Positions 31,761-33,932 of a DNA stretch of 33,932 nucleotides are shown one piece after another. A model generated the notes under the pieces. It saw only the letters and a list, made by a program, of their open reading frames with translations. It ran no database searches and was not told where the DNA came from. How positions within the stretch are numbered: the stretch's first letter is position 1; each line of letters opens with the position of its first letter. A program made the translations under genes and the position numbers. Origin of the DNA: Zetaproteobacteria bacterium (GTDB taxonomy: Bacteria > Pseudomonadota > Zetaproteobacteria > Mariprofundales > Mariprofundaceae); NCBI GenBank assembly GCA_003696795.1, contig RFFT01000015.1, positions 1-33,932 of the forward strand. Reading direction: 5' to 3'.

Positions 31761-33028
31761 CCCGTCGGACTGAAGATGCGCTGATTGTCGGTGGAGGATT
31801 GGCCGGACTAAGCTGCGCCATCACCCTGGCCGAGCATGGTCTGCGCGTGCGTGTAATCGAAGCCGCACCCCGTCTGGGCGGGCGCGCGGGTTCTTTTTTC
31901 GAGCCGCGCATGGGCCAATGGATCGATCAGGGACCACACTTGTTGATCGGCGCCTATCGTCACACCCTGGATCTCCTTCGCCGCTGCAATGCCGAACACC
32001 TCGTCCATTGGCAATCATCGCTGCAGCTACCGTTGTGGGACCCACAACGCGGGCGGTTTGCACTCCACCCCTCGCCTCGCCTGCCGCTCGCCATCGCCTT
32101 GCCCCGTGCGCTGGCCATGCTGCCCGGACACAGTTTCGCCAGTGTACCTGCCATGCTTCGCCTGCGTTTTGGCCAGGCAGGCACGCATGAGACCGTGGTT
32201 CAATGGCTACAACGTGTGCGTGCTCCCCACGAATTGGTCCGCGATTTCCTGGAGCCCCTTTGTCTTGCGGCCATGAACGAACACATGGACACCGCCAACG
32301 CGCGAAGCTTTCAACGCGTCCTCGTCACCGCATTCGCCAATCATGCGCACGCGCGACTGGGTTGGTTCCGACAGCCGCTTGGCCTGTGCATTGAAACCCT
32401 CGCCAAACATGCCCGCTCGCTCGGAGTATGCATAACCACCCACACCCAAATCAACGGCGTCAGCCACCGCGCCGGCATGACCGTGCTGCGCAGTCAGCGC
32501 GGAGAGGAATTCCGTGCGCCACACGCGGTGGCCACCGTACCTCCCTGGCACCAACATCGCCTGAGCGCCCCCGTCGCCACCCCCGCCAGCAACCCGATCA
32601 CCAACATCCATCTCTGGTTCGACGAACAATTGCGCCTGCCGTACCCCTTTATCGGAGGATTGGGCACCCAGGGCCAATGGTTCTTCGATGTCTCCGCACA
32701 AACCAGGCAACGCTCGACGGGTTCGCACCTATGCGTCGTGATCAGCGCTTTCCATGCCGGCAACAAACGCACCCTCGTTGACCAGGCATGTTCCGAACTG
32801 GCGCGCATCATGGAACGCAAGAAGCTGCCCGAGCCATGCCATAGCCGGGTGGTCTGCGTGCGTCGCGCCACCGTGCTGGTGCGGCCGCACCTTCCACCGA
32901 ACCTGCCGACGGGGATCGTGGACAGCATGGAGCACCCTGCGCCGGGCCAACTGCCCGCAACCATTGAATATGCCATCGAACGCGGAAAACAAGGGGCGGA
33001 GCGGGTGCTTGCCCGCTGCCAGCACTGA
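31757..33028 (+). CDS. hpnE: HpnE, hydroxysqualene dehydroxylase (unusual C-terminus)
   Basis: A 423-residue FAD-dependent amine-oxidase-fold enzyme that reduces hydroxysqualene to squalene, completing the HpnC/HpnD/HpnE route. The dinucleotide-binding site is V-G-G-G-L-A-G-L (11-18), followed by E-A-A-P-R-L-G-G-R-A-G-S (35-46) and D-Q-G-P-H-L-L-I-G-A-Y (57-67), all family-typical. The end has R-R-A-T and L-P-A-T-I-E (399-404), also typical. Between them, however, where family members carry an L-A-G-D-(W/Y) FAD motif, this protein reads M-E-H-P-A-P (E392, H393), about five residues shorter than usual. The other two frames show no Gly-Asp motif here, so it is not an obvious frameshift. FAD binding may still occur through the N-terminal fold. 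Function is assigned from operon position and the remaining motifs. Confidence 0.85.
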   Translation: MTRRTEDALIVGGGLAGLSCAITLAEHGLRVRVIEAAPRLGGRAGSFFEPRMGQWIDQGPHLLIGAYRHTLDLLRRCNAEHLVHWQSSLQLPLWDPQRGRFALHPSPRLPLAIALPRALAMLPGHSFASVPAMLRLRFGQAGTHETVVQWLQRVRAPHELVRDFLEPLCLAAMNEHMDTANARSFQRVLVTAFANHAHARLGWFRQPLGLCIETLAKHARSLGVCITTHTQINGVSHRAGMTVLRSQRGEEFRAPHAVATVPPWHQHRLSAPVATPASNPITNIHLWFDEQLRLPYPFIGGLGTQGQWFFDVSAQTRQRSTGSHLCVVISAFHAGNKRTLVDQACSELARIMERKKLPEPCHSRVVCVRRATVLVRPHLPPNLPTGIVDSMEHPAPGQLPATIEYAIERGKQGAERVLARCQH

Positions 33029-33137
33029 AAGTTTTCCACCGTCCAGAGCAACACGGACGCATCAAGTGTTACTTCAATACCCATAATAATTTACATTACA
33101 AGATAGTTACAACAACTTGTTTTTAAATGGATTTATG

Positions 33138-33160
33138 TTATGCCTAACAATTAGGCATAA
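33138..33160. repeat. Perfect 10-bp inverted repeat upstream of coq7
   Basis: TTATGCCTAA at 33138-33147 and TTAGGCATAA at 33151-33160 are exact reverse complements, separated by CAA. Neither strand shows a T run after the hairpin, so it is not an intrinsic terminator. Its size and position in an AT-rich leader suit a dimeric protein-binding site. Confidence 0.7.
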
Positions 33161-33194
33161 AGAAAAAAAGCGCGCCATAACCGTAAAACGCAAC

Positions 33195-33240
33195 CTTTGC
33201 ACAGGTTTATCCACATAGTTATCCACAGATGTTGTGCACA
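33195..33240 (+). promoter_or_regulatory. Tandem array of four DnaA-box-like sites
   Basis: Compared with the consensus TT(A/T)TNCACA: CTTTGCACA at 33195-33203 (one mismatch), TTATCCACA at 33207-33215 (perfect), TTATCCACA at 33219-33227 (perfect), TTGTGCACA at 33232-33240 (one mismatch). All lie on the plus strand with start-to-start steps of 12, 12 and 13 bp, close to one helix turn. Two perfect high-affinity boxes so close together are very unlikely by chance in GC-rich DNA. Confidence 0.75.
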
Positions 33241-33289
33241 ACCGCGCGCACGCTTGCTCGGACTCAAGCTTTGCCTACACTTGGCGCTC

Positions 33290-33932
33290 ATGAAACATGA
33301 TCCGAGACGCTATTCGCTGGTTGACCGCATCATTGGTGAGTTTGATCGCGCGTTGAACAACATCTTTTGCGAACAACAAAGCTCACGACCCTATCCAGCG
33401 GACGAAGCGTCGAGCGAGGAGCGGTTGACGCCACAGGAAAAGCGCTTGTCTGCCGGTCTCATGCGTGTAAACCACGCTGGCGAAATGGCGGCGCAGGCCC
33501 TATACCAGGGACAAAGCCTGACCGCACGGGATCCCGCATTGGCCAACAAGCTGCGTCAAGCATCGATCGAGGAAAGCGACCATCTGAACTGGTGCCGACG
33601 GCGATTGCACGAACTGGATGCGGCACCTTCGCGGTTGGATCCCTTTTGGTATGCCGGCTCGTTTGTCATCGGCTTTACCGCCGGCATCGCCGGCGACCGT
33701 TGGAACCTCGGCTTTCTCGCCGAAACCGAAAAACAGGTAGTGCGTCATCTGGACAGTCATTTGCAACGACTGCCCGCACAGGATCAGCGCAGTCGACGCA
33801 TCGTCGAGCAGATGAAAATCGACGAGCAAGGGCATGCGGATCTGGCCGAATCACTGGGTGCAGCCGAGCTGCCGGCGCCGATCAAGACCCTGATGCAACT
33901 TACCTCCAAAGTCATGACCACGCTGGCCGAAC
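33290..33932 (+). CDS. coq7: Coq7, 2-polyprenyl-3-methyl-6-methoxybenzoquinol hydroxylase (cut by window end)
   Basis: The first 214 residues of a di-iron monooxygenase that adds a hydroxyl group in late ubiquinone synthesis; the end lies beyond base 33932. The hallmark L-M-R-V-N-H-A-G-E-M-A-A-Q-A-L-Y-Q-G-Q (57-75) is clear. Iron ligands by family alignment are E65, E95 and H98 (E-E-S-D-H), E147 (A-E-T-E-K-Q-V) and E179 and H182 (D-E-Q-G-H). Coq7 is the form found in Pseudomonas and other non-enteric Gammaproteobacteria instead of UbiF. ATG at 33290 has no ribosome site; TTGCTC at 33254-33259 and TACACT at 33276-33281 (16-base spacer) would give a nearly leaderless transcript, a weak guess. 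Confidence 0.94.
   Translation, partial: MKHDPRRYSLVDRIIGEFDRALNNIFCEQQSSRPYPADEASSEERLTPQEKRLSAGLMRVNHAGEMAAQALYQGQSLTARDPALANKLRQASIEESDHLNWCRRRLHELDAAPSRLDPFWYAGSFVIGFTAGIAGDRWNLGFLAETEKQVVRHLDSHLQRLPAQDQRSRRIVEQMKIDEQGHADLAESLGAAELPAPIKTLMQLTSKVMTTLAE

Follow-up and report, generated by a model that had tools for sequence, protein, structure and literature searches.

A DARS-like cluster of DnaA boxes between hpnE and coq7 belongs to a dispersed element family of the Mariprofundaceae, mostly terminus-proximal where its copies could be placed

The window analysed here is the whole stretch of 33,932 nucleotides of contig RFFT01000015.1 from a Zetaproteobacteria bacterium. Close to its end, hpnE stops at position 33028 and coq7 starts at 33290, the contig itself ending at 33932, and the gap between the two genes holds the following features, among which three DnaA boxes, numbered III to I, form a core resembling that of the E. 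coli DARS sites.

33032..33040, plus strand: distal DnaA-like box TTTTCCACC, directly past the hpnE stop, one mismatch to TTATCCAC
33081..33170, no strand: AT-rich tract, 24% G+C, with low G+C at the equivalent place in relatives
33110..33122, plus strand: position of the predicted IHF site, CAACAACTTGTTT, two mismatches to TAANNNNTTGATW; family position -110/-109 from box II
33138..33160, no strand: inverted repeat TTATGCCTAA-CAA-TTAGGCATAA, conserved in the family, within the AT-rich tract
33195..33203, plus strand: DnaA-box-like CTTTGCACA, a box that is not conserved in relatives
33207..33215, plus strand: box III of the three-box core, TTATCCACA, exact match
33219..33227, plus strand: box II of the three-box core, TTATCCACA, exact match
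33233..33241, minus strand: inverted box I of the three-box core; its minus-strand sequence is TTGTGCACA, against TTATCCACA in relatives

With 24.4% G+C, against 61.5% for the whole window, the tract at 33081-33170 marks the only place where the window has 90-bp stretches at or below 30% G+C, which bears out the AT-rich tract that an earlier sequence-only reading had placed there. The same reading described four DnaA boxes, all on one strand. Two of them are indeed perfect and two near-perfect, CTTTGCACA at 33195 and TTGTGCACA at 33232 each lying one base off TTWTNCACA, but the fourth fits the minus strand better (33233-33241), given that relatives show a clear inverted box, TGTGGATA, at this place. 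The box at 33195 is present with its single mismatch, yet relatives show no conserved counterpart, and the list of boxes was incomplete in that it missed the distal TTTTCCACC (33032-33040), a box with a conserved position in the family. Two perfect boxes at a 12-bp step greatly exceed what chance would give: TTATCCACANNNTTATCCACA, allowing up to three mismatches, is expected 0.01 times per window and was found twice. The scan for box clusters that had been proposed as a check returned the window pair as the only close TTATNCACA box pair of the 1.55-Mb draft genome, in which both IHF alpha and IHF beta are encoded. Compared to the family described below, the window copy is among the weaker members in terms of its distal box (TTTTCCACC), its IHF site with two mismatches and its degenerate box I (TGTGCACAA). 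The inverted repeat at 33138-33160 is among the most conserved parts of the family, and it bears a loose likeness to Xer half-sites, although its spacer measures 3 bp.

The relatives of its coq7 place the source organism in the Zetaproteobacteria, family Mariprofundaceae. When the gap was compared in relatives, another check that the sequence-only reading had proposed, the element was indeed found between hpnE and coq7 in most of the Mariprofundus-type coq7-linked genomes, with its AT-rich tract and with TTATCCACA some 100-190 bp ahead of coq7. What the alignments of these relatives have in common is the inverted repeat TGC.TA......A.GCA, together with a pair of direct boxes and a third, inverted one; the IHF consensus lies in their AT-rich tract. 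In G002 and G003, which belong to the same genus as the window, no element stands at coq7, yet each carries a copy in another part of the genome. Searching with a sequence model (R1) revealed this noncoding element of about 210 bp in 72 of 74 Mariprofundaceae genomes, with 1-9 copies each and usually several per genome (for instance three in G000 and nine in G065), these counts including weaker matches such as the third copy of G000 (C89:28069), which scores only 26.7 bits. The window site is thereby one copy of a dispersed repeated element common to iron-oxidising Zetaproteobacteria. Outside the Zetaproteobacteria, R1 also matches several other Proteobacteria over its full length, and matches to a model of the core with E <= 1e-5 were obtained in 9 of the 20 other-family genomes searched. 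In these other Proteobacteria, the element was found upstream of uvrB (G049), uvrC (G047), priA (G055) and rmuC (G058), all of them DNA-repair or restart genes; even with the copies at recG and RNase HI added, we claim no preference for such genes.

The DARS core is known to consist of three DnaA boxes, with the same spacing in DARS1 as in DARS2, and with box I in the orientation opposite to the other two (PMC5742627; also PMC8682772). In E. coli (NC_000913), DARS1, located on the minus strand of the bioD-uvrB gap, reads ATACACA-TGG-TTATCCACA-GGAAT-AGTGGATAA, and the zetaproteobacterial consensus core reads TTATCCACA-AAG-TTATCCACA-GCTTC-TGTGGATA. The two agree in box order, in orientation and in the 3-bp and 5-bp gaps, the direct boxes standing at a 12-bp step, and the opposed boxes II and I of DARS2 are arranged in the same way. 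This three-box core is common to 61 aligned copies, a set that was preselected by the TTATCCACA...GTG pattern. In the same line, a BLAST search of 5,426 complete E. coli genomes with the 38-nt consensus core found its best place at ygdT, that is in the rppH-mutH gap of DARS2, at 90.3% identity along 30 nt. This holds for 10 of the 12 rows sampled at even intervals, and the identity band of DARS2 takes in 5,841 of the 5,899 records; the E-values are weak (about 1-5), so that the weight of this result lies in the locus being DARS2 rather than in the score.

For the accessory sites, 71 distinct copies were evaluated. In 62 of them, the sequence closest to the IHF consensus TAANNNNTTGATW, taken from PMC8682772, stands at position -110 or -109 relative to box II; the match is perfect in 10 and has one mismatch in 24 of the 71 copies, compared to 0.3% and 5.2% in mononucleotide shuffles. 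An IHF site of the DARS2 type is hence present in the family, the predicted site being degenerate in the window copy. In addition, a perfect distal TTATCCAC is found in 56 of the 71 copies, in most cases between -187 and -191 relative to box II (0.1% in mononucleotide shuffles).

The location of the copies on the chromosome could be measured in the few assemblies in which dif or dnaA shares a contig with a copy. Dif-like sites (CGCATAATNNATATTATGTNAA, at most two mismatches), usually one per genome, were found at G012:C1:1115141 and in 43 other genomes, thereby providing a terminus marker for the Zetaproteobacteria. In G012, a single contig of 2.30 Mb, the dnaA-dnaN-recF-gyrB order stands at the contig start, the sampled GC skew is positive up to about 1.1 Mb and negative after, with a cumulative peak at about 1.105 Mb, and the coq7 element at 1,093,438 is 22 kb apart from dif at 1,115,141. 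Similarly, in G068, another complete relative (2.54 Mb), dnaA lies at 1.2 kb, and dif, with an element nearby, stands at 51% of the chromosome length. All full-length copies of the three best assemblies lie within about 390 kb of dif, at -304, -22 and +299 kb in G012, at -350, -140, +45, +86 and +307 kb in G068, and at -389, -163, -160, -10 and +137 kb in G077. The placeable copies of the Mariprofundus lineage are mostly in the terminus half. An exception to this terminus proximity is a copy of G009, 7.5 kb from dnaA. This copy (G009:C49:78500-89500) stands beside an IS30-type transposase-like ORF, and it is possible that it was recently relocated.

The copies also share an orientation. On dif-bearing contigs, 24 of 25 have the same sense, minus to the left of dif and plus to the right, the sole exception being G062:C37:188464. 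The pattern was suggested by 13 copies, and the remaining 12 agreed 11 times; the corresponding binomial value of 8e-7 is overstated because many of the copies are orthologous. With copies sorted into locus groups by flanking genes, 14 groups lie on the expected GC-skew side and two on the opposite one (non-Ghiorsea Mariprofundaceae; p = 0.002 for 14/16). This polarity is not universal, since the Ghiorsea copies are located on the opposite GC-skew side from the Mariprofundus copies.

Beyond what was observed in terms of architecture, conservation, copy number, position, orientation and match to the E. coli DARS cores, we infer that the window site is probably a DARS-type DnaA-reactivating element, which would bind DnaA and IHF, allow nucleotide exchange and play a role in the cell cycle. 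That such clusters may be reactivation sites had been remarked in passing by the sequence-only reading, and it is the best-supported of its suggestions. According to this model, ADP-DnaA would occupy boxes III, II and I (33207-33241), and the opposed boxes II and I would put two DnaA molecules head to head, leading to the loss of ADP, after which apo-DnaA would reload ATP. An IHF-induced bend in the AT-rich tract may bring the core into contact with DnaA bound at the distal box (33032) and time the activity of the complex. Copies of the terminus half, being doubled late in replication, would then supply more DnaA-ATP for the next initiation.

Like DARS1 and DARS2, the zetaproteobacterial element is intergenic and has a three-box core of the same spacing with box I opposed; it shares an IHF site with DARS2, and uvrB, the neighbour of DARS1, also stands beside the copy of the more distant genome G049. 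However, while E. coli has two DARS sites at mid-replichore, the Zetaproteobacteria have 1-9 copies, mostly in the terminus half where they could be placed, and the copies of G012, G068 and G077 are not at mid-replichore, a position which does not belong to the structural definition of DARS. The element further differs from DARS by its conserved inverted repeat, its single orientation about dif, and its accessory sites, a conserved distal box and a conserved IHF site, both lying beyond box III, although the side of the IHF site is only a possible difference from DARS2. Besides, E. coli DARS2 needs Fis. Several points count against the DARS interpretation: box I and the IHF site are degenerate in the window copy, the E. 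coli BLAST E-values are weak, DARS chemistry does not account for the orientation about dif, and E. coli DARS2 is less effective near terC (PMC5010248), whereas the zetaproteobacterial copies are mostly terminus-proximal. One may conjecture that several copies compensate for the weaker terminus position, which would fit the data of PMC5010248.

A bolder extension of the DARS interpretation, possible but rather unlikely, is that the polarised multi-copy set around dif acts as a sensor of replication completion in the Zetaproteobacteria. Duplication of the terminus half would in that case cause a jump in DARS dosage, recharge DnaA and license the next round, the fixed orientation relative to fork direction being part of the mechanism.

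Among the other explanations, a datA-like site comes next, although we regard it as unlikely. In such a site, the IHF bend would bring the ATP-DnaA bound at the distal box into contact with that bound at the cluster, and ATP would be hydrolysed, so that DnaA would be switched off or titrated. IHF sites accompanied by DnaA boxes occur at datA and oriC as well, which weakens the case for DARS, and the element shares with datA an IHF site flanked by DnaA boxes at a constrained spacing, over some 190-210 bp, a size close to that of the 187-bp minimal datA. The spacing between IHF site and boxes is likewise critical in datA (PMC10380432). Nevertheless, the core has the opposed boxes and the spacing of DARS, its best match across E. 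coli is DARS2, and datA is a single-copy locus near oriC whereas the copies considered here are mostly near dif.

The shared orientation of the same-contig copies about dif, their position in the terminus half and their skew side, which is the expected one for 14 of the 16 locus groups, could also be explained by a polar terminus element, in which a DnaA/IHF complex would stall or mark forks, or guide segregation around dif, as a fork trap without Tus. This resembles the Tus-Ter system, in which sites around a terminus share one orientation, but the element is made of about 210 bp of DnaA and IHF motifs, and Tus was found in none of the 74 genomes searched, the E. coli control being positive. 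In addition, the polarity fails in Ghiorsea, one G009 copy lies near dnaA, and the orthologous copies are not independent. To our knowledge, no fork barrier based on DnaA has been described. Such a role is therefore quite improbable.

Still less probable is a DnaA-dependent control of the promoter of coq7 or of neighbouring genes, to which the window copy, upstream of coq7 in a gap conserved in many relatives, would lend itself. As named by eye from translated ORFs, the neighbours of the copies include coq7 or hpnE, ychF/hsp20, and glycosyltransferase-like and YjbQ-like genes; copies also lie between convergent trmL and CN-hydrolase genes, and at the 3' ends of recG and RNase HI genes. On account of these varied contexts, a coq7-specific promoter was rejected as the general function. 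In the Ghiorsea type (G011 and G020), moreover, coq7 is found at another place, but the element has kept its position immediately 3' of hpnE, and G002 and G003 have a coq7 without it. The regulatory link to quinone or isoprenoid genes that had been put forward for this site is likewise unsupported, most copies adjoining unrelated genes and some lying between convergent gene ends.

Finally, a chromosomal oriC or secondary origin, also proposed from the sequence, is hardly credible: the AT-rich tract, IHF site and DnaA boxes are origin-like, and the architecture alone would be compatible with occasional firing, but the gene context is wrong, there are 1-9 copies per genome, and in the complete relative G012, on which the proposed skew check was run since the window's own genome is too fragmented, the element lies at the skew maximum near dif while dnaA-dnaN is at the minimum, so that the main-origin reading was rejected.

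The DARS literature consulted deals with E. coli, where two sites are known, and with related beta- and gamma-proteobacteria, and literature searches for DARS or DnaA-box elements in the Zetaproteobacteria or at the terminus returned nothing on point. A DARS core occurring as a multi-copy, terminus-biased and oriented family in a separate class would imply that the reactivation of DnaA by DNA elements has a longer history and takes more forms than so far described. The zetaproteobacterial elements would besides represent natural designs differing in number and position, on which dosage and position models of replication timing could be tested.

In about 40 E. coli genomes, the consensus core finds a match over more than 80% of its length. 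The one that was opened (ECONIH4 2173653-2176087) lies in a conjugative-type region with traJ and a HigA-type antitoxin gene, which suggests that mobile elements can carry DARS-like cores.
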